NCBI GenBank assembly: GCA_913043235.1 | Contig: CAJWLO010000012.1 | Span: forward strand, 1 to 64,000 | Direction: 5' to 3' | DNA length: 64,000 nt | From: an uncultured Fidelibacterota bacterium | GTDB taxonomy: Bacteria; Fidelibacterota; Marinisomatia; Marinisomatales; UBA1611 | Program-made: the position numbers and the translations under genes | Part shown: positions 1 through 10,560 of the stretch, piece by piece | How positions within the stretch are numbered: position 1 is the stretch's first letter | How the letters are laid out: every line of letters starts with the position of its first letter | The notes under the pieces: model-generated | Seen by the model: the letters and a program-made list of their open reading frames with translations, nothing else | What the model was told of the DNA's origin: nothing | The model's database searches: none

Positions 1-968
1 CCATCTGAGGTTCGTGGTGTACCCACTTTAAATCTTCCTAAGGGATTTGAACTTTCATTTTTAATGAAATCAACTTCTGATTTCCAACTAACACCAAAGG
101 GTGGATTGGTTATCATGTAATCAAACCTATCTCCTTGAAATTGGTCTTCTGATAAAGATGAAACTGGACCTCTGATATTATTGGGATTTTCACCAGTAAT
201 CATCATATCTGATTTACAAATAGAATAGGTTTGTGGGTTTAATTCTTGTCCTAATAATCGTAACTCTACCTTATCATTAATATTGTCGTGAATGTACTGT
301 TCTCCGATGGTTAACATACCTCCACTACCACAACAAGGGTCGTAAACACTTCTAACATTTCCAACACCTTGAAGTTCTTCTCTGTCTTTTTCAAAAACAA
401 AGGAGACTAATAACCTTACGATATCTCTTGGAGTATAATGTTCTCCACTTGTCTCATTGGACATCTCTGAAAACTTTCTCAGTAACTCCTCAAAGATAAT
501 CCCCATATCACGATTAGAGATAACATCAGGGTGAAGGTCTACTTCTGTGAACTTATCAATTAACTGATAAAGACGATTACTTTTATGAAGTTTTTGAACT
601 GGTTTATCAAATTGGAAATTCTCAATTATCTCCAAAACATTATCACTGTAACCACCTATGTAGTTTTGAAAATTGAGGTTAATGTTTTGTGGGTCTGATT
701 TGAGTCTTGTTAAATCATATTTGGAATGGTTAAAAAAGTTTGTATTGATTTTGTTTAATATGATGGGAGTTGGGTCGTCTACCTGACTTTTATACTTTTC
801 ATAGATTTCATAAACTTCATCTTTATGACTTTCTAAAGTACAATCTAACCTTCTTAGTACAGTAAATGGGAGAATAACATCTCCATATTCGTGGGGTTTA
901 AACAGACCTCTTAATACATCATCACATACATTCCATATAAAAGATGATATTTGGTTATAATTTGACAT
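1..968 (-). CDS. hsdM: Type I restriction-modification N-6 adenine DNA methylase (HsdM), C-terminus truncated by window edge
   Basis: Minus-strand reading from ATG at 968: MSNYNQISSFIWNVCDDVLRGLFKPHEYGDVILPFTVLRRLD...SGEHYTPRDIVRLLV...DPCCGSGGML...YMITNPPFG; SAM-binding and NPPF catalytic motifs. Open to base 1, absent from the ORF track. Confidence 0.93.
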   Translation of the reverse strand, partial: MSNYNQISSFIWNVCDDVLRGLFKPHEYGDVILPFTVLRRLDCTLESHKDEVYEIYEKYKSQVDDPTPIILNKINTNFFNHSKYDLTRLKSDPQNINLNFQNYIGGYSDNVLEIIENFQFDKPVQKLHKSNRLYQLIDKFTEVDLHPDVISNRDMGIIFEELLRKFSEMSNETSGEHYTPRDIVRLLVSFVFEKDREELQGVGNVRSVYDPCCGSGGMLTIGEQYIHDNINDKVELRLLGQELNPQTYSICKSDMMITGENPNNIRGPVSSLSEDQFQGDRFDYMITNPPFGVSWKSEVDFIKNESSNPLGRFKVGTPRTSD

Positions 969-1034
969 ATATCAAATATAATCAAGAATTTGGGGAAGTA
1001 TTTAAGTCTTTAAACAGAAAAATTAGATGGGGAA

Positions 1035-1268
1035 ATGGAAACTAGGAATCCCTTCACCCTCCACAAATTACTCGACGGTGATGGACATTGTATAAGATGT
1101 TCAACATCAATTCCATATAATATGAAAAGTCCTTATTGTAAGAAATGTTATAAGAGTTGGAATAAATATAAGAATAAGGGATTTGAAGAAAAACATTGTC
1201 ATCAATGTTCTAAAAGTCATAAGACATCATTTGAGAAACCAATCTGTTATAGTTGTTTTAAATCTTGA
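1035..1268 (+). CDS. Small double zinc-ribbon protein (four CxxC knuckles), resembling the C-terminal module seen on some PLD-family nucleases
   Basis: CIRCSTSIPYNMKSPYCKKCYKSWNKYKNKGFEEKHCHQCSKSHKTSFEKPICYSCFKS. Confidence 0.7.
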   Translation: METRNPFTLHKLLDGDGHCIRCSTSIPYNMKSPYCKKCYKSWNKYKNKGFEEKHCHQCSKSHKTSFEKPICYSCFKS

Positions 1269-1298
1269 AAAATCTTTAAGAATACCCCTCTCATATCC

Positions 1299-1345
1299 AA
1301 ATCTACCCATCCTCCCACAAACAAAAAACCCCATGAATGTGGGGG
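1299..1345 (-). repeat. Array element copy A (terminator half plus GTAGATTT end; middle lacking)
   Basis: aaatctacccatcctcccacaaacaaaaaaccccatgaatgtggggg. Confidence 0.7.
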
Positions 1346-1696
1346 CTAATAACTTTGTGGAACATCACCATCTTTATAACCAAAATGTTTAACACAGAAT
1401 TCCTTTACAATAGTGTTGTCACTACCTTTACAATAAACCTGTAAGTATATATTATCAACCAACCATAATGAGAATTGGTCTATATCGCCCTCTTGTCTTG
1501 AAATACCTTTTTGATTAGCATACTCCTTATTTAAAGCTATTTGATTTAGTTTAGCCCATTCACGAAAAACAATTTCAATGAACTCAATTTGGCTCCAGCC
1601 TTCCTCAAATATTTCATTGATTCGATCACGACCAATATTTTTATAATTTTTTGCTATCATATTGTGTTTATCAATAGATATTCCCCTATCTTTCAC
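1346..1696 (-). CDS. Hypothetical protein (GTG start directly after element B)
   Basis: 116 aa ORF MKDRGISIDKHNM...; flanked by elements A and B. Confidence 0.6.
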   Translation of the reverse strand: MKDRGISIDKHNMIAKNYKNIGRDRINEIFEEGWSQIEFIEIVFREWAKLNQIALNKEYANQKGISRQEGDIDQFSLWLVDNIYLQVYCKGSDNTIVKEFCVKHFGYKDGDVPQSY

Positions 1697-1697
1697 A

Positions 1698-1732
1698 AAT
1701 CTACAAAAAATTACCCTACAATGTGTGGGGGT
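1698..1732 (-). repeat. Array element copy B (core plus promoter-like end)
   Basis: aaatctacaaaaaattaccctacaatgtgtgggggt. Confidence 0.8.
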
Positions 1733-1771
1733 TGATATTATGAAAAGGGTAGAATTATAATTTAACTAATT

Positions 1772-2938
1772 TTACTGTTTTGTAATTATAACATAACCAT
1801 TACCTGAATTAATATCATTATCATTATTAGAATATGTATTAACTTGATTACTACCATTATTTTTTGATCCACCACCACCACCAACAGGTGACCCTGTATA
1901 CCCCTTATATAAACCACCACCTCCACCTGAATAACCACCACCAGCTCCAGCCAACGCCATACTCGACCAATAACCAGAAGCGGAACCACCTCCAAATCCA
2001 CCATGACCAGCACTATTATCTCCAGAGGTGCTTCCGGTACTTGTTCCACCCTCACCTCCATTAACATATGCTTTACCTGCACCGGAATTAGAGTTATACT
2101 CACCAAGTTGTCCATTCCCAAAGAATCCACCACCTCCATCACTACCATTATCTATCAGAGAATTACCACCGCCGCTATTATTTTGAAATAAACCTCCATT
2201 ATCACCACCATCACCATCATCAGCTCTAGGTTGAGCATATGCGTATTGGGAGAAAGGGTGATACCCCAGATTTGTAACACCTCCAGATGTTGTTGTTCTT
2301 CCACCACCTTCACCCGCATAATTATAATTACCCTCCCAATGTATCCCTCCTCCTCCTCCAGCAATAACTAAAATTGATGCTTCATTATTATGTGGAGATT
2401 TTGTGACAAAAGAACCGCCACCGCCACCAGAACCCCGTCTATATCCATCTGCGGTTCCCGTACCCCATGTATTATGTTCTAATCCTCTTTGACCAACTAA
2501 AATGCGAATAACCCAATTTTTTTCTAAAGTAAAATCTCCTTGTATTGTTGCTCCATTATTTTCATAAGTATAACCACCGCTGGTTGGAGGACCATGTGGC
2601 GTAGAGGTGCCATAATCATAGTTATTAGCATACCCTCCTTTTGCACCAGCAGCAAGAATTCTATAAGTACCATCTTCAGGTACTGTCCAATATTGAATAC
2701 CACTTGTTACATTGAAATAATCTGTATCATCTTCCCAAGAAACATCATAAGAATTTTTACAATTTGCTAATGTAGGTCCAGTAGTACCAGTTGCTCCGCA
2801 ATTAGTAAAAGTATGAGATGTGAAATCATATAATGAAGAAGAAGATGTACTCTGTGGCTTATGCACAGCCTGAAAAGTTGGTAATGCTATCTGTGCATTA
2901 ATAAAAGATATGAAAAAAAGTAATAGAATATTTCGCAC
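1772..2938 (-). CDS. Secreted glycine-rich protein (ALK-type Gly-rich domain-like)
   Basis: Many GGGGG runs with WTVPEDGTYRILAAGAKGG and VIAGGGGG. The ORF-track start at 2998 runs through element C; GTG at 2938 gives signal peptide VRNILLLFFISFINAQ. Confidence 0.7.
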   Translation of the reverse strand: MRNILLLFFISFINAQIALPTFQAVHKPQSTSSSSLYDFTSHTFTNCGATGTTGPTLANCKNSYDVSWEDDTDYFNVTSGIQYWTVPEDGTYRILAAGAKGGYANNYDYGTSTPHGPPTSGGYTYENNGATIQGDFTLEKNWVIRILVGQRGLEHNTWGTGTADGYRRGSGGGGGSFVTKSPHNNEASILVIAGGGGGIHWEGNYNYAGEGGGRTTTSGGVTNLGYHPFSQYAYAQPRADDGDGGDNGGLFQNNSGGGNSLIDNGSDGGGGFFGNGQLGEYNSNSGAGKAYVNGGEGGTSTGSTSGDNSAGHGGFGGGSASGYWSSMALAGAGGGYSGGGGGLYKGYTGSPVGGGGGSKNNGSNQVNTYSNNDNDINSGNGYVIITKQ

Positions 2939-2942
2939 ATTC

Positions 2943-3008
2943 AAATCTACAAACAATATCCCTACAATGTGTGTGGGTACAAACAAAAAACCCCACAAAT
3001 GTGGGGCT
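2943..3008 (-). repeat. Array element copy C (complete: core plus terminator hairpin)
   Basis: aaatctacaaacaatatccctacaatgtgtgtgggtacaaacaaaaaaccccacaaatgtgggg. Confidence 0.85.
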
Positions 3009-3033
3009 TGATAAATGATTAATTATTTCTTTA

Positions 3034-3333
3034 TTATTGTCTCTTAAGGTTGAGAGTTATTGAGTCTATATATTTAGCCATATTGAGACAATCAATAGTG
3101 ACCCCACCTAAATCATGCGATGTAAATTCTATAACAACTTTACAATAACCTACAATAAGGTTGGGATGGTGATTTAATTGTTCTGCTTTCTTCGCTACAG
3201 AGTTAATAAAATCTATACTATCCATGTAAGATTGAAATTGTAGCTCTTTTTTTATTTTATTATTATCATACATCCAACCATTAAGGTTGTTTAAATCATT
3301 TTGAACATCTTTTTTACTCAATAGTTTATTCAT
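3034..3333 (-). CDS. phhB: 4a-hydroxytetrahydrobiopterin dehydratase (pterin-4a-carbinolamine dehydratase)
   Basis: KAEQLNHHPNLIVGYCKVVIEFTSHDLGGVT; PCD family signature. Confidence 0.88.
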   Translation of the reverse strand: MNKLLSKKDVQNDLNNLNGWMYDNNKIKKELQFQSYMDSIDFINSVAKKAEQLNHHPNLIVGYCKVVIEFTSHDLGGVTIDCLNMAKYIDSITLNLKRQ

Positions 3334-4748
3334 TACTTTAACAGCACCATCTTCTTAGTCTGCCTGAACTCTCCTGCCTGGATCGTATAGAGATATAATC
3401 CTGCTGATACTGGCTCATTTCTATCATTCGTGGCATTCCACCTAATAGACTTATATCCTGCTGTTTGTGAGCCATTTACAAGCGTTTTAACTATCCTGCC
3501 CATCATATCATAGATAGTGATATTGACCAATCCATCTTCTGGTAAATCATATCGTAAAGATGTGACTGGGTTGAATGGGTTTGGATAGTTTTGACGTAAT
3601 ATATATTGTAATGGAATAGACTCACTTTGTATTGAAAGAATTCCATTACCGCCAAAAGTAAAAATAGGAGCAATAGGATTTTGCAATGGAAAACGCTGAT
3701 CTTCTGAAATACCAGTTAATGAGTCTAAATATGCATCATATATTGATAAAGTACCAAGGGCAAATGCACCCCAAGCCCATAAGTTACCAATGACAATTTT
3801 AGAGTTATCAGTAGACCAACTATAGACAAGAGGTACAGTCCCACTAATAAAATTAAAAAGGGAGTCAGTCTCACCAGTCTCAACATTATAAGTCCAAAAT
3901 TGAAAATAATATGGTACCATAAAACCAGGAGGCTCAATTCTTCTACAAAATAAAAATTTATCTAAATCATAATCAGCCGTATAAGGTAGCGACACACCCT
4001 CATCAAAAAACGCTAATTCCGTGAACTGAATAGGATTTTGAAAAATATTTAATTTATTTAAACGCCAGATTCCATTTTCATCGGATAAAGTTGTGTATAT
4101 GTTATCGTTCTTGTCCCAATAAATAGATTGTGTATCTGAAATTTGATCTAACCCAAGTCTGATATCTAATGTATCAGTCTGATTTATATCTATATGATGA
4201 ATTAAAATTTCCAAACTATCAACCATAGGTATTTTATTTAACCATAAAATTCTATTTTTCTCATTTGATAGGAGGTAATCAAGTCTAAATGCAGAATCGG
4301 CAACCGCTATACTTTCCTGAGTATTCAGTGAATATTTATAAATACCTGAATAATCTAATTGACTACCAATATCATCACCAACTTTTGAGTAAATGATAGT
4401 ATTTTCATCAGAAGTAAATCTTGCATTATATCCTGTTGCATTTAGTGTATCATCAAAAGTATCAAAATTGTATAGAATAATTGGGGATATAACATGTAGG
4501 GATGGGTCCGATTCAATTAGCGGGGATATTAGCATAGTAGCTTGATCTTCAGCAATATCATGTAATATTGAGTTTGATAGAATAGTATCTATACTTGAAC
4601 TATCTAAATTTATTTTATAGATAGAAGGAGAATCATCCATGTCTCCGTCAGAAAGTAAGGTACAGTATGCAATATTATTAATATTGCTCTGACTAAAGCA
4701 AAACGATAAGATTAAAAAAAATGATAAGCAATAATTCATCATCTCCAA
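3333..4748 (-). CDS. Secreted protein with WD40/TolB-like repeats and C-terminal T9SS-type sorting domain
   Basis: N-terminal signal; C-term LRQNYPNPFNPVTSLRYDLPEDGLVNITIYDMMGRIVKTLVNGSQTAGYKSIRWNATNDRNEPVSAGLYLYTIQAGEFRQTKKMVLLK. Confidence 0.85.
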   Translation of the reverse strand: MEMMNYCLSFFLILSFCFSQSNINNIAYCTLLSDGDMDDSPSIYKINLDSSSIDTILSNSILHDIAEDQATMLISPLIESDPSLHVISPIILYNFDTFDDTLNATGYNARFTSDENTIIYSKVGDDIGSQLDYSGIYKYSLNTQESIAVADSAFRLDYLLSNEKNRILWLNKIPMVDSLEILIHHIDINQTDTLDIRLGLDQISDTQSIYWDKNDNIYTTLSDENGIWRLNKLNIFQNPIQFTELAFFDEGVSLPYTADYDLDKFLFCRRIEPPGFMVPYYFQFWTYNVETGETDSLFNFISGTVPLVYSWSTDNSKIVIGNLWAWGAFALGTLSIYDAYLDSLTGISEDQRFPLQNPIAPIFTFGGNGILSIQSESIPLQYILRQNYPNPFNPVTSLRYDLPEDGLVNITIYDMMGRIVKTLVNGSQTAGYKSIRWNATNDRNEPVSAGLYLYTIQAGEFRQTKKMVLLK

Positions 4749-4779
4749 ATCTACAAAAAATTACCCTACAATGTGTGGA
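4747..4779 (-). repeat. Array element copy D (core plus promoter-like end)
   Basis: aaatctacaaaaaattaccctacaatgtgtgga. Confidence 0.8.
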
Positions 4780-4885
4780 GACAGATAAGTGGTGTGTATT
4801 ATAGGGTGTATTGATAAATAATAAGTATGTAGTAAAAGTAATTACTAAACTTTAATGAATCTTGTATAGTTATATGGAGATATAA

Positions 4886-5137
4886 ATGACAAAACTATGT
4901 ATTAAGAAATTTGAAAAAGGCAATGAAAAGCCATTAACAACTGTTTCTATTCCCCTTGCTGTTTTAAAGATGGTAAAAAGTTTAATCCCAAAAAAAGCTA
5001 AAGAAGAACTGCAAAAAGAAGGGATTGATATCCAAGAAATCATTAAACTTTCTGATTCTCCTGATTTTACTGGAACTGTTTTAGAAGTTGAGAATCATGA
5101 AAAGAATGAAAAGGTAATAATCTCAATAGAAAAATAA
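4886..5137 (+). CDS. Hypothetical protein, opposite orientation to neighbouring units
   Basis: 83 aa MTKLCIKKFEKGNEKPLTTVSIPLAVLKMVKSLIPKKAKEEL...; RBS-like tatggagat upstream. Confidence 0.65.
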   Translation: MTKLCIKKFEKGNEKPLTTVSIPLAVLKMVKSLIPKKAKEELQKEGIDIQEIIKLSDSPDFTGTVLEVENHEKNEKVIISIEK

Positions 5138-5190
5138 TTACCCTACAATGTGTGCGAGGCTATAAACAAAAAACCCCATGAATGTGGGGC
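5136..5190 (-). repeat. Array element copy E (core plus terminator hairpin)
   Basis: aattaccctacaatgtgtgcgaggctataaacaaaaaaccccatgaatgtggggc. Confidence 0.85.
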
Positions 5191-5197
5191 TTGAGGA

Positions 5198-7381
5198 TTA
5201 TTGAGACCCTGGTTCCAGATACCGATCAAAGTGAGCTACGAGCTTGCCAAATAGGTAGCGAGCATAGTGGGTTGGGCGTGTCCAGCCATGGGTTGCCCCG
5301 GGAGCAAAGGCAAAATCAAAGTCCTTGCCTAAGCGCATCAACTCTTCCGCCAGCACCACCGTCGTCTTGAATGGCACTACGTCATCCTGCATTCCGTGGA
5401 TGATAAGCAGGTGATCCTCCAAGTTGCCTGCATATTGTGCAGCCCCCCGGGTGAACGCCTCCGGATGGCTCTGTGGGCGTCGCACTATAGCAACATCGTC
5501 TGTACCGAAGAAGTACGGGTCCACCGCTGCAGCCCCGGCGACTCCGGCCTTAAACAATCCCGGCTTCTTGAAGAGCGAGTAGATAGTGAGCGTGCCCCCG
5601 TAGCTACTACCCCAGATACCGACTCGTTCCGGATCTACGTAGGGAAGCGTCGACAGGTAATTGACAGCGCTCTCGAGGTCGTCGATGTCCCTGCCACCAA
5701 AGTCTATGAGGAACTCCTCTCGAAATTCCCGACCGTATCCAGTGCTTCCTCGTACATCGACCTGGATCACGATGTAGCCGCGTTCGACTAAAAGCTGGTG
5801 CAGGAGGCCGATCGTTCCGGCCCAACGGTTGCGCACCGTGTTCGAATATGCAGGGCCGAAAACGACAGGATACCGCTTTCCTGGCTTGAGGTCGGTCGGC
5901 TCGAGAATGCGTGCGTGCAGTGTGTAGTCATCGATTCGACTCGGGAAAGTCGCGTACCGTGCCTGGGCCCAAGATCGACGCATGAACTCAGGAATAGGTG
6001 ACGTGGTAACCCGGTTCTCGGGTAAGCCGTTCCGAGTGTCCACTATGTAGAGCTCTGGCGGGCTCAGATCACTGTTATGTAGAAGCGCTACCCTTGTCCC
6101 ATCGGGTGACGGGTAGGGTCGGTGTTGACCCGGCAGAGTGGTGACGCGGGTTGCAGTTCCTCCTTCATCTGGGATACGAAAAACCTGACGCTCGTACGGG
6201 CTCGGCTCATTGGACTGGAAAAAGATCATGCTTACAGGCGACACAACGAAGGGTTTGCTTGTGACATCGAAAGACTCATTCGTTAGCAGATTTGGCGTTC
6301 CATCTCCGGGAGTCAGAAGATAGAGTCCATAACGATCACCAAGGTCGCTGAGGAACACCACGCGCTCGCCGTCGGAGTGCCAGGCAGATGCGATGGATGT
6401 ATATACGCGTGTTTCTCGATGGTCGTGCCAGATTTCCTGCATGCTACCATCAACTGGGTCGACGGTATGCAACCAACGATCCACTGCCGTATCCGACTCT
6501 CGATCAAGGAGTAAGGTTCCATTGGGGGACCAGGAGAATGCTACAACACGGTTGGCCGTGGGGCCCGGCAGGTCCAACAGTGTCAAGTCGCCGCTTTCGA
6601 CTCCATAGAAACCGATTGTGCGGTGCTCGTTCGGGTCACCGGGGTATCCCCTGCGAAGGTTGTTTACAAGAGTCTCTTGACCCAGATAGTACGGGAACGG
6701 TACCGTTCGCAAGTTCCGGCGATCAACGTAATGCACCACAATGGTCCGGCTGTCAGGCGACCAGGCGTATGTAGGGCCACCCCAAACGTATGGACCAATC
6801 TCGACGTCGGGACGGTTGTATCGACCGAGTGGCACGCTGGAAATGGACGGTACACTGACCTCCGTCGCCCGGGTCAGAGTGCTTGTCCCCAAATGGAAGA
6901 GCCAGAGGTCACCATCTTGAAGAAAGGAGGCATATCGGCCGTCAGGTGAGACAGCCAGGTTCGACTTGTCTCCCCCGGTCTCCGTGAGGCGCTTCCCGCC
7001 ACCATTCGCGAATGACACGCGCCATACGTCGTCGGAGCGTAAATAGATAAGGTCTTCTGCATCGGGGGTCCATACGAACTGATCTACGCCTCTCGTGCCT
7101 TCAATCTCCGAGGTGAGCCGGCGCAGACCTGAGCCGTCGCCCTTTACAATCCATATCTCGCGGCGTGGCAATCCAGAGTCGTTCCAGAGGAATGCGAGTT
7201 GGCGGCTGTCGGCTGACCAAGAGGGAGAGGATGGCGCTGTACCAGTAATCGACGGCTGTGAGACGATACGATCGATAGTGAGCGCCGGTTCTTGACCGGC
7301 GCCGGTGGTCTTATCTACGGATTTTTGAGAACATCCAACAATTAGTAATAATGCAATTAGTAATAATCTTTTCATCTTCAA
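5198..7381 (-). CDS. S9 family prolyl oligopeptidase/dipeptidyl peptidase, lipoprotein; GC-rich outlier
   Basis: lipobox LLLIVGCSQ; TolB-like propeller; GxSxGG (GIWGSSYGGT) and IIHGMQDDVVPF, GATHGW catalytic triad context. Confidence 0.93.
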   Translation of the reverse strand: MKMKRLLLIALLLIVGCSQKSVDKTTGAGQEPALTIDRIVSQPSITGTAPSSPSWSADSRQLAFLWNDSGLPRREIWIVKGDGSGLRRLTSEIEGTRGVDQFVWTPDAEDLIYLRSDDVWRVSFANGGGKRLTETGGDKSNLAVSPDGRYASFLQDGDLWLFHLGTSTLTRATEVSVPSISSVPLGRYNRPDVEIGPYVWGGPTYAWSPDSRTIVVHYVDRRNLRTVPFPYYLGQETLVNNLRRGYPGDPNEHRTIGFYGVESGDLTLLDLPGPTANRVVAFSWSPNGTLLLDRESDTAVDRWLHTVDPVDGSMQEIWHDHRETRVYTSIASAWHSDGERVVFLSDLGDRYGLYLLTPGDGTPNLLTNESFDVTSKPFVVSPVSMIFFQSNEPSPYERQVFRIPDEGGTATRVTTLPGQHRPYPSPDGTRVALLHNSDLSPPELYIVDTRNGLPENRVTTSPIPEFMRRSWAQARYATFPSRIDDYTLHARILEPTDLKPGKRYPVVFGPAYSNTVRNRWAGTIGLLHQLLVERGYIVIQVDVRGSTGYGREFREEFLIDFGGRDIDDLESAVNYLSTLPYVDPERVGIWGSSYGGTLTIYSLFKKPGLFKAGVAGAAAVDPYFFGTDDVAIVRRPQSHPEAFTRGAAQYAGNLEDHLLIIHGMQDDVVPFKTTVVLAEELMRLGKDFDFAFAPGATHGWTRPTHYARYLFGKLVAHFDRYLEPGSQ

Positions 7382-7414
7382 TCCTTTATTTGAGCCAGAG
7401 GCGTTTCATACAGA

Positions 7415-7447
7415 AAATTACAAAAAATTACCCAACAATGTGGGTGT
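7415..7447 (-). repeat. Array element copy F
   Basis: gaaaattacaaaaaattacccaacaatgtgggt; contains ACCCAAC/GTTGGGT. Confidence 0.75.
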
Positions 7448-7509
7448 CTCTTTTATAAAGACATATTTAGACTAAAAAGTATGTGTATAGTGTGTGTGAC
7501 CGGTCAGCT

Positions 7510-7689
7510 TTAAACTGATTTTATACTTTTCAATACATAATGTGTTGGGTTATCCCCATAAGTAAACTTATGAGGTTCATGTTCGTAGTCATAGTTAATC
7601 AAACGTATCTCTTCTTCTTTTACGTAAAACACGTTTTCCTTTATTTCTTCATCCGAGTTTTCGTATTTATATTCAATTTTGTATATCAT
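7510..7689 (-). CDS. Hypothetical 59-aa protein (below ORF-track cutoff)
   Basis: MIYKIEYKYENSDEEIKENVFYVKEEEIRLINYDYEHEPHKFTYGDNPTHYVLKSIKSV; RBS aaaggagaatgaaatg. Confidence 0.6.
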   Translation of the reverse strand: MIYKIEYKYENSDEEIKENVFYVKEEEIRLINYDYEHEPHKFTYGDNPTHYVLKSIKSV

Positions 7690-7707
7690 TTCATTCTCCT
7701 TTCGGTT

Positions 7708-7965
7708 TTAGTCTTCGTACTTAACCATGGCTTGGTGATAAGTAAATATTTGAACTCCATCTTCCGATGTATGAGAAGTCACCTGTACACTGCCAAATGG
7801 TTGAAAGCCAAACTGCATACGAACCCTAACGCAATTTGCAATACCACGCAAACCCCCATCCGGGCCATAACCCTCGTCATCAAGTTCATCGGGGAAGTCT
7901 GGCGAAGTTACGCTAAACTCATGCTCATCTGATTCTATAGTGTAGTCTACTATTTTTCTATCCAT
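7708..7965 (-). CDS. Hypothetical 85-aa protein
   Basis: ORF with RBS aaaggagaataaaatg; near-identical leader to the 59-aa ORF downstream. Confidence 0.6.
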   Translation of the reverse strand: MDRKIVDYTIESDEHEFSVTSPDFPDELDDEGYGPDGGLRGIANCVRVRMQFGFQPFGSVQVTSHTSEDGVQIFTYHQAMVKYED

Positions 7966-8198
7966 TTTATTCTCCTTTATTAATCTTTTGATGACATTTA
8001 GACTAAATACGTGTATATAATTTAAACTTTTTTAAACTATTTCAATTTTTTTTGACAAAAATATCAATTTCTTATATCTCTTATTATTACGATATATATA
8101 GATACTAACCGTCCAAATTTTTACCTTTTTCCTATATAGTAGGGGGTTGTTTTTGCCCCAATAGGGTAGAAACACTAATTAATTATGGAAGGAACAGT

Positions 8199-8348
8199 AT
8201 GGACTTGTTTAATAAAAAATGGTTAACTCTTTATGAGGCGGCTCAATACTTAAACAGATGCACCCGGCAAGTATTACGATACATTGAAAACGGAAATCTG
8301 AAAAGGCAATATAGAATTTCATATTTCGGCATACCTAAAAGATTGTAG
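8199..8348 (+). CDS. Short helix-turn-helix (excisionase/MerR-like HTH_17) protein, apparently truncated
   Basis: Manual translation MDLFNKKWLTLYEAAQYLNRCTRQVLRYIENGNLKRQYRISYFGIPKRL; aaggaa upstream. Confidence 0.6.
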   Translation: MDLFNKKWLTLYEAAQYLNRCTRQVLRYIENGNLKRQYRISYFGIPKRL

Positions 8349-8493
8349 ACATAAGTAACAAATATTACGAATTTCCAACCAAAAATTTCACGCTTAAGTG
8401 AGGCTGCTTTTTTTAAACAATATGATTAAATAGTCTTAGATTAAGAATTAATCGTTAATTTATTATAGTAGTTTTAATAAGGAGCAATTAATA

Positions 8494-10560
8494 ATGAACA
8501 AATATATACTGCACCTCTCCCTTGTTTTATCGGTATGTCGTGGAGAAAATGATTTCACAATTAAAGAAATATTGAGCGCCCCTTTCCCATCTAACTTGAT
8601 TGTTTCTAAAAATAGCAAAAAAGTAGCATGGATTTATAATAAAAAAGGTGTAAGAAATATTTGGATAGCACATAATCCAAAGTATATAGGATACCCAATC
8701 ACAAAACATGAAAAGGATATAGGAGAAGAAATAACATCACTTATATTTACTCCAAACGGAAATAAGATTATTTTTGTTAGAGGGGCCGGACCAAATAGAA
8801 AAGGTGAGATACCTAACCCCACTAGTTCACCAGATTGGCCAAAACAAGAAATTTGCATCATTTCAAGTAAAGGAGGACCTATAACTGTTTTAGATGAAGG
8901 ATCATACCCACAACTATCGTCAAATGGAGAATTCATAGCCTACATCAAAAAAGGACAGGTATGGAGTCTGCCAATAATGGATCCTAAAGAAAAAAAACAA
9001 CAGTTTGTTATAAGGGGTATTGCAGCATCATTGCGTTGGTCACCTGACAATAAAAAACTGGCTTTTGTTTCAAAAAGAGGAGACCATAGTTTTATAGGTA
9101 TTTATCATTTTGATTTAAATCAAATAACTTATCTCTCACCATCTGTAGATAATGATCAGGAACCGGCTTGGTCAATGGACAGCCAACATATTGCTTTCAT
9201 AAAAATACCTAATGAAAAAAGAATTTTACCATTTGAAGAGAGAAGAACAGGATTACCTTGGTCCATTCATATTGGCAATTCTAATACTGGAAAAACAAAA
9301 ATGATATGGAAGGCAAAAGAAGGAATTGGGAGTGTTTTTCGATCAATCTCTTCAAATAATCAAATTTTTTGGGCACAAAATGATCAAATTATTTTTCCTT
9401 ATGAAGGTAATGGATGGACCCACTTGTATTCTATTCCAACTAAAGGAGGAGAGCCAAAACTATTAACTCCAGGAAAATCTGAAGTGCAGTTTGTATCATT
9501 GGGCGCTAATAGGAAAAAAGTTTATTTTTCTTCTAATCAGAACGATATTGACAGGCAACATGTTTGGGTTTCAAATTTAAAAGATAGCAAACCAAAGCAA
9601 ATTACTAAAGGAAAAGGAATAGAGTGGGCTCCCATTGAAAATCAAAAAGGAGAATTATTCATTTTTGCCTCAAATTATAATTCGCCTGCTCATCCATATA
9701 TAGTTGATAAAACTGGAAAAATGATATCCTTGGCAAAGAAATCAATTCCAGAATCTTTTCCCACAGACTTCCTTAACAAGCCTGAACAGATAAAAATACG
9801 GGCTTCAGATGGAATTGAGATTCATGGTCAACTTTTTTTACCCTCAGATTACAATGAAAATAAAAAATACCCTGCATTACTTTATTTTCATGGAGGGTCT
9901 CGAAGACAAATGCTTTTGGGTTTCCACCATAGAGGATATTACCATAATGCTTTTGCTATGAACCAATATTTAGCTAATCAAGGATATATGGTTCTATCGG
10001 TGAATTATAGAAGCGGTATTGGTTATGGGATGGAATTCCGTGAGGCTTTAAACTATGGAGCTAATGGTGCTAGCGAATACAAAGATGTTATTGCTGCGGC
10101 ATTATATTTAAAATCCAGGAAAGATGTTAATACAAGTAAAATTGGATTATGGGGTGGATCTTATGGCGGATATCTAACTGCAATGGGTCTTGCGAGAAAT
10201 TCAGATATCTTTGCTGCAGGCGTAGATATTCATGGTGTACATAACTGGAATGTTGTAATTAAAAATTTCCGTCCAAATTACAACTCAGAGCAAAGAAAGA
10301 AATTTGCTAACAAAGCTTTCGATTCATCACCATTAGCTTTTATTGATAGTTGGAAATCACCAGTATTGTTAATTCACGGAGACGATGATCGAAATGTCCC
10401 ATTTAGTGAATCAGTTGATTTAGTAGAATCACTAAGAAAAAAGAAAGTATATTTTGAACAATTAATTTTTCCAGATGAAGTCCATGGATTTTTATTGCAT
10501 AATAATTGGGTTTTAGCTTTAGAAGCAACGGATGACTTTTTTAAAAGAATGTTGGATTAA
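8494..10560 (+). CDS. S9 family prolyl oligopeptidase
   Basis: GLWGGSYGGY nucleophile motif, LLIHGDDDRNVPF, DEVHGF; N-terminal signal. Confidence 0.93.
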   Translation: MNKYILHLSLVLSVCRGENDFTIKEILSAPFPSNLIVSKNSKKVAWIYNKKGVRNIWIAHNPKYIGYPITKHEKDIGEEITSLIFTPNGNKIIFVRGAGPNRKGEIPNPTSSPDWPKQEICIISSKGGPITVLDEGSYPQLSSNGEFIAYIKKGQVWSLPIMDPKEKKQQFVIRGIAASLRWSPDNKKLAFVSKRGDHSFIGIYHFDLNQITYLSPSVDNDQEPAWSMDSQHIAFIKIPNEKRILPFEERRTGLPWSIHIGNSNTGKTKMIWKAKEGIGSVFRSISSNNQIFWAQNDQIIFPYEGNGWTHLYSIPTKGGEPKLLTPGKSEVQFVSLGANRKKVYFSSNQNDIDRQHVWVSNLKDSKPKQITKGKGIEWAPIENQKGELFIFASNYNSPAHPYIVDKTGKMISLAKKSIPESFPTDFLNKPEQIKIRASDGIEIHGQLFLPSDYNENKKYPALLYFHGGSRRQMLLGFHHRGYYHNAFAMNQYLANQGYMVLSVNYRSGIGYGMEFREALNYGANGASEYKDVIAAALYLKSRKDVNTSKIGLWGGSYGGYLTAMGLARNSDIFAAGVDIHGVHNWNVVIKNFRPNYNSEQRKKFANKAFDSSPLAFIDSWKSPVLLIHGDDDRNVPFSESVDLVESLRKKKVYFEQLIFPDEVHGFLLHNNWVLALEATDDFFKRMLD

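Follow-up and report, generated by a model that had tools for sequence, protein, structure and literature searches.

Gene-cassette arrays with a shared junction element in Marinimicrobia

The stretch of DNA analyzed here—the window, 64,000 nucleotides (nt) long—is the start of contig C12 in a 137-contig, 2.9-Mb Marinimicrobia genome (G000). Between positions 1297 and 7447 it holds six copies, A to F, of a junction element, all on the minus strand and standing between genes. The original prediction, made from the sequence alone, had placed six copies between named genes and none elsewhere in the 64 kb; a weight-matrix scan agrees on both counts, with zero further junction sites outside 1297-7447, and the Pfam genes are as it listed them.

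All the junctions belong to a single family, in which the right half is either X (TTTTTTGTTTGTGGGATGATGGGTAGATTTGG; right-half sequence TTTTTTGTTTGTGGGAKGATGGGTAGATTTGG) or Y (CACATTGTAGGGTAATTWTTTGTAGATTTGG; right-half sequence CACACATTGTAGGGTAATTWTTTGTAGATTTGG). The left part is a terminator-like hairpin, T1 (GCCCCACATTYRTGGGGTTTTTTGTTT), linked to X or Y by a 10-bp T-rich segment, the core TTTTTTGTTT; the shared junction is ~50 bp long. The single consensus first described does correspond to one family, but it mixes the two types of right half, and T1 is present directly left of only three of the six window junctions (A, C and E). Most window copies have in common the right end GTAGATTT(GG), and a start codon mostly follows GTAGATTT within a few nt, as had been noticed from the outset.

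Junction A (1297-1346; 64 bits, one mismatch to the X consensus) is of type X, and consists of T1 (1319-1345), the presumed terminator, the core and the right half GTGGGAGGATGGGTAGATTTGG. Junctions B to F are of type Y, with E and F diverged. Between A and B (1695-1735; Y right half without T1, 51 bits) lies the gene for a 116-aa protein of unassigned family (1346-1696; no Pfam match), and between B and C (2941-3009; T1 at 2981-3007, core and Y, 41 bits) that for a Gly-rich secreted protein with a signal peptide (1772-2938, start near 2938; PF12810). The unit between C and D (4745-4783; Y without T1, 54 bits) has two genes, the first for a secreted protein with a type IX sorting domain (Por_Secre_tail/FlgD_ig; 3333-4748; PF18962, PF13860) and the second for PhhB, pterin-4a-carbinolamine dehydratase (Pterin_4a; 3034-3333; PF01329, 6e-23); a second PhhB of this genome sits in another array, G000:C16. 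An 83-aa protein is encoded between D and E (4886-5137) on the plus strand, opposite to the sites; all the other genes named here are on the minus strand. Junction E (5122-5192; 34 bits) has T1 (5164-5190), the core and a Y with a diverged 3' end, and between it and F is an S9 peptidase gene (5198-7381; Peptidase_S9 in Pfam). Junction F (7412-7447; 35 bits), a diverged Y that reads GTTGGGT...TTTGTAATTTT, has a near-identical counterpart ahead of a different gene in G119, a genome from another family of the order. A scan of positions 1-8500 matched no Rfam family.

G000 as a whole has 32-33 copies of X, those beyond the window lying in further arrays like this one; Y is limited in this genome to contig C12. 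Pattern searches of 246 genomes of the phylum found X in 65, against 0 for a reversed-pattern control, and Y in 11. In the window's family X is dense, a longer pattern finding it in 24 of 33 genomes; it is also present across the order, but absent from the more distant families f20-f31. Named records carrying the element are mostly Candidatus Neomarinimicrobiota, and IMG/VR viral contigs have neither X nor Y. In a 219,569-base sample of loci that includes the window, the weight matrix gave 53 matches of at least 12 bits versus 0 in the reversed sequence; it was trained on pattern-found instances, so weaker relatives are missed. Most of these genomes are metagenome assemblies, which break at arrays. 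One from another family, G157 (L042, L044, L048, L053, L056, L057), has 87 X copies, partly on contigs shorter than 5 kb that are possibly misbinned array fragments.

A logo of 152 distinct X instances shows a weak AAG, T1, TTTTTTGTTTGTGGGATGATGGGTAGATTTGG and ATG, with sharp bounds on both sides and little conserved beyond. The spacing at the joint of T1 and X is fixed across all 152. T1 itself varies in sequence and is paired beyond permuted controls at five of the six positions tested, as a covarying hairpin would be; judged from its sequence, it is probably a good intrinsic terminator. The first ATG lies exactly 2 nt past the site in 102 of 254 sites.

Sites have a uniform orientation within each of the 41 contigs examined; only ~19 of these hold more than two sites, so the remaining contigs say little on orientation. 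Inside 14 arrays, 141 open reading frames (ORFs) of at least 80 aa lie on the same strand as the sites and 39 on the opposite strand, and the distance from site to site has a median of 976 bp. In ten contigs a tRNA gene precedes the first site, nine times by less than 1 kb: in seven of the ten the gap is 149-271 nt (Pro twice, Lys, Asp twice, Val and Ser), and in the other three it is 461 (Gly), 892 (Pro) or 3000 nt (Asp). The longest array, G027:C10 (28,936 bases, 25 junctions), contains two tRNA-Pro 3' fragments with terminator (L026 14554 and 16186), both with the same flanking arm repeats, CACTGGTAATACACTGGTCA, and this points to repeated integration at a tRNA. Ahead of each fragment stands an attR-like ATTTCCACTACAGATACACTGGTAAAG...GAGGATTCTGA.

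When 228 cassettes were compared all against all, 45 pairs were found to share a start. The next neighbor is different in every testable pair and the previous neighbor is the same in only three, so the identical unit order that would have spoken against capture is not what these genomes have; cassette gain, loss and shuffling occur at site boundaries. Cassettes shared between genera are 80-97% identical in nucleotide sequence, versus a mean of 74.0% and a maximum of 79.5% for recA (205 comparisons). For example, G027 (g10) and G004 (g3) share one at 93.2% over 459 bp, and G002 (g2) and L156 (G009, g5) another at 95.2% over 547 bp; the top identity, 96.8%, involves G157, a genome in which the short contigs may be misbinned.

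The edges of these matches fall in the element. Among 19 inter-genus matches of at least 150 bp and at least 80% identity, the 5' edge is inside the element in both genomes in 12, and the 3' edge in 8; random placement (300 draws) gave means of 0.06 (maximum 1) and 0.11 (maximum 2), respectively. In alignments read by eye, identity ends directly after T1-TTTTTTGTTT in four informative pairs where the partner lacks X, and in three pairs whose left flank has changed from T1 to a tRNA-side repeat it begins at the T run. Both edges of a cassette would thus lie at the same 10-bp core, as site-specific recombination predicts. That cassettes are swapped at the element is well supported, and the mobile units of the original prediction stand on these identities above recA, differing neighbors and edges.

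We count as established the element, its orientation, the tRNA linkage of many arrays, and inter-genus exchange whose edges fall in the element. Our preferred reading, which we hold to be probable though by no means secure, is that the region is a gene-cassette array, like many others in G000 and in related Marinimicrobia, and was built by site-specific recombination in TTTTTTGTTT with an enzyme likely acting in trans. A cassette would open with an X (or Y) half, go on with a gene (start codon most often 2 nt past the site) and close with that gene's own T1 and TTTTTTGTTT. Neighboring cassettes would be joined through the 10-bp T-rich core, T1 end to X or Y end, to form the shared, one-orientation element. 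Cassettes would be added or removed by conservative site-specific recombination in TTTTTTGTTT, catalyzed by a tyrosine recombinase most likely supplied by tRNA-integrating satellite-like elements inside some arrays. With T1 as terminator, and X or Y possibly as promoter, each cassette would be a transcription unit of its own, so that it need not matter where in the array it stands.

A search for a tyrosine recombinase was proposed along with the original prediction. One does occur in some arrays of related genomes, but it belongs to satellite-like tRNA elements, and we can therefore only infer its link to cassette movement. It is a 370-aa protein (Phage_int_SAM_5 plus Phage_integrase; phrog_1 integrase) found inside the X arrays of G004:C106 and G006:C1, the latter copy with one stop; an integrase also lies at the edge of G012:C87, and there are remnants in G001:C10 and G004:C33. 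The surroundings in G004 and G006 include, between them, an excisionase, a primase, a primase/helicase, an HNH nuclease and an Arc-like repressor, which is why we call the elements satellite-like. They lie inside the arrays at L190 11715-16334 (G006:C1) and L181 4977-10469 (G004:C106), one with primase and helicase, the other with excisionase and HNH nuclease. Element-borne recombinase together with replication genes is thus present in the G004 and G006 arrays and partly in G012, and was not found with most arrays. The array-borne integrase might move single cassettes, or it may move only whole islands.

Several observations weigh against this reading. No recombinase is present with every array, and close integrase relatives were not found in G000, G002 or G016, though islands assemble poorly. 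No circular cassette and no empty site was seen. Some homologous genes are preceded by X in one genome and by Y in another, with the edge at GTAGATTT rather than TTTTTTGTTT, so the joint may be composite. A promoter role for X is not helped by TAnnTTTG, the Bacteroidetes-type promoter: only 6 of 87 ordinary genes have an upstream match, versus a shuffled mean of 7.7, and without enrichment there we rejected it as a general host promoter. The window itself has no tRNA gene. Close copies of its own cassettes were absent from the loci compared; among the matches listed, DNA similarity of the window's cassettes to other genomes is confined to the element, and at the protein level only PhhB, the type IX domain and S9 have relatives elsewhere. 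The case for exchange is therefore that of other arrays of the element family, the window's own cassettes not having been found rearranged elsewhere.

Homologous recombination is the rival that fares best, and we judge it unlikely without regarding it as negligible. T1-X/Y would then be a terminator-promoter repeat at which RecA or a phage annealase swaps genes, with no dedicated enzyme. X elements are near-identical over 30-50 bp, a length close to the minimum for homologous exchange; within an array, every site is a direct repeat of the others; and in four matches the 3' edge alone falls in the element, the match having begun inside a gene. Yet in the informative pairs one side lacks X and only the short T1 tail is common, and the edge is nevertheless sharp at TTTTTTGTTT; the fixed spacing of T1 and X in all 152 copies also argues against it.

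A purely additive island, in which serial integrations target the tRNA and the element is what each leaves behind, seems to us improbable. The tRNA linkage and the tandem tRNA-Pro fragments with arm repeats in G027:C10 speak for it, but a tRNA fragment does not stand at each cassette end: that array has two among its 25 junctions, and most junctions have no tRNA sequence. Additive flexible genomic islands are known from Alteromonas (PMC5217437), Actinomarinales (PMC7771536) and Methylophilaceae (PMC10872708). Like the arrays here, they add cassettes at tRNA genes, exchange them between genera and have tRNA fragments repeated within the island; their tell-tale repeat, however, is the tRNA fragment, whereas here a separate, non-tRNA element of ~50 bp stands between single genes.

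Integrons and CALIN (clusters of attC sites lacking integron-integrases), to which the original prediction likened the capture of these cassettes, resemble the arrays in several ways: a cassette row mostly in one orientation, site-like junctions, a start codon just past the site, mixed cargo and exchange between species. The element would then be an unusual attC, recognized by an IntI whose gene lies elsewhere in the genome. The succession of T1, loop and Y is laid out like R''-L''-L'-R', copy F reads GTTGGGT, and integron integrases above the cut-off occur in 44 of the 246 genomes (including L058-L060 and L091-L119), among them G016, an element carrier. The core boxes of attC are RYYYAAC and GTTRRRY (PMC3053210); neither is in the X consensus, and both appear in attC order in only 1 of 152 X copies. 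There is no long imperfect attC hairpin, only local hairpins on either strand. The IntI loci of the phylum have no copy of the element, and IntI above the cut-off was not found in G000 or in most X genomes. We therefore also rejected Y as attC (T1 as R''/L'', Y as L'/R'), attractive as that layout is. Element, fold and enzyme all fail in this way, and the joint maps to the T-rich core beside a terminator, often in a tRNA-anchored array; cassette-like as the arrays are in their working, membership of the integron family is not supported, and we consider it very improbable. Canonical integrons occur separately in the phylum: the IntI locus of G142 has, by eye, canonical attC-like repeats, and a literature search found no paper on Marinimicrobia with integron attC cassettes.

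An ordinary, immobile promoter/terminator repeat of conserved operons, as the probably good terminator T1 and the preferred distance from X to the start codon might suggest, is just as improbable and, for the arrays tested, largely refuted: copies are indeed genome-wide, yet they lie in one-orientation arrays and not as a general promoter would, the other 56 kb of the window have none, and the same cassette has different neighbors at identities above recA.

Two other known systems invite comparison with the arrays. Tycheposons and phage satellites are likewise tRNA-anchored and carry a tyrosine recombinase, excisionase, primase/helicase genes and cargo, but most arrays seen here are without such genes, and those elements are not known to have a cassette-level junction repeat. 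The sites of XerC/D dif (pdif) modules are 28 bp long, roughly palindromic and alternate in orientation. X and Y, by comparison, are not palindromic and are always direct repeats; by eye, the X logo has no inverted arms, and XerC/XerD arms around a 6-bp center are not found. These modules, described on Acinetobacter plasmids (PMC6449649), do resemble our arrays in having genes between short recombination sites and no dedicated integrase. Tentatively, then, the arrays could represent a capture system separate from both integrons and dif modules, with a terminator/TTTTTTGTTT/X site, a recombinase of its own or one borrowed from tRNA satellites, and self-contained cassettes with terminator and start signal, some with a standard signal peptide or type IX sorting end, by which exchangeable secreted proteins would pass across the order. 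The capture of genes as tandem cassettes has its textbook example in integrons. If a second, independent system with a different joint is indeed widespread in a marine phylum, cassette capture would have evolved more than once, and ocean bacteria would have a concrete route for trading secreted or metabolic genes one at a time from genus to genus. The identity of the enzyme at the T-rich core becomes a testable matter.

Among 112 array proteins, nine match type IX sorting domains and a few are oxidoreductases, acetyltransferases or thioredoxin-like proteins, with no other common family; four defense models were matched, by one protein each. In three comparisons (L181 3189-3502 with L197, G004:C33 with L195, and L197 with L205), the 3' part of a gene, extending into the element, is at least 80% identical between genera and the upstream parts differ. 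At least some of these shared ends span a type IX sorting domain, and the pattern suggests that secreted proteins may swap their 3' ends. In the window's S9 peptidase the body is 56.8% GC and the lipoprotein signal region 25.4%, a contrast that would fit a foreign body fused to a local signal. At the contig edge beside the array, positions 1-968, there is what on reading the sequence looks like a putative type I restriction methyltransferase-like gene. A mini-ORF (7386-7409, minus strand) that encodes MKRLWLK and a stop separates junction F from the S9 gene and has an identical copy in G119 (L078); followed by AAAGGA, it recurs in L078 near 507 and 1284, and across two families within the order the genes that it precedes are unrelated. 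About 15 cassettes open with a related signal peptide (M.RY..LLLFIGLAWGQ) before different bodies; the pattern has 22 matches, some of them clearly unrelated by eye. Signal peptides of the FIGLAWGQ type stand directly past sites, with different proteins behind them, in L265, L266, L268, L030, L036 and L200, and at L200 1600 a 103-nt cassette holds a truncated signal peptide alone.

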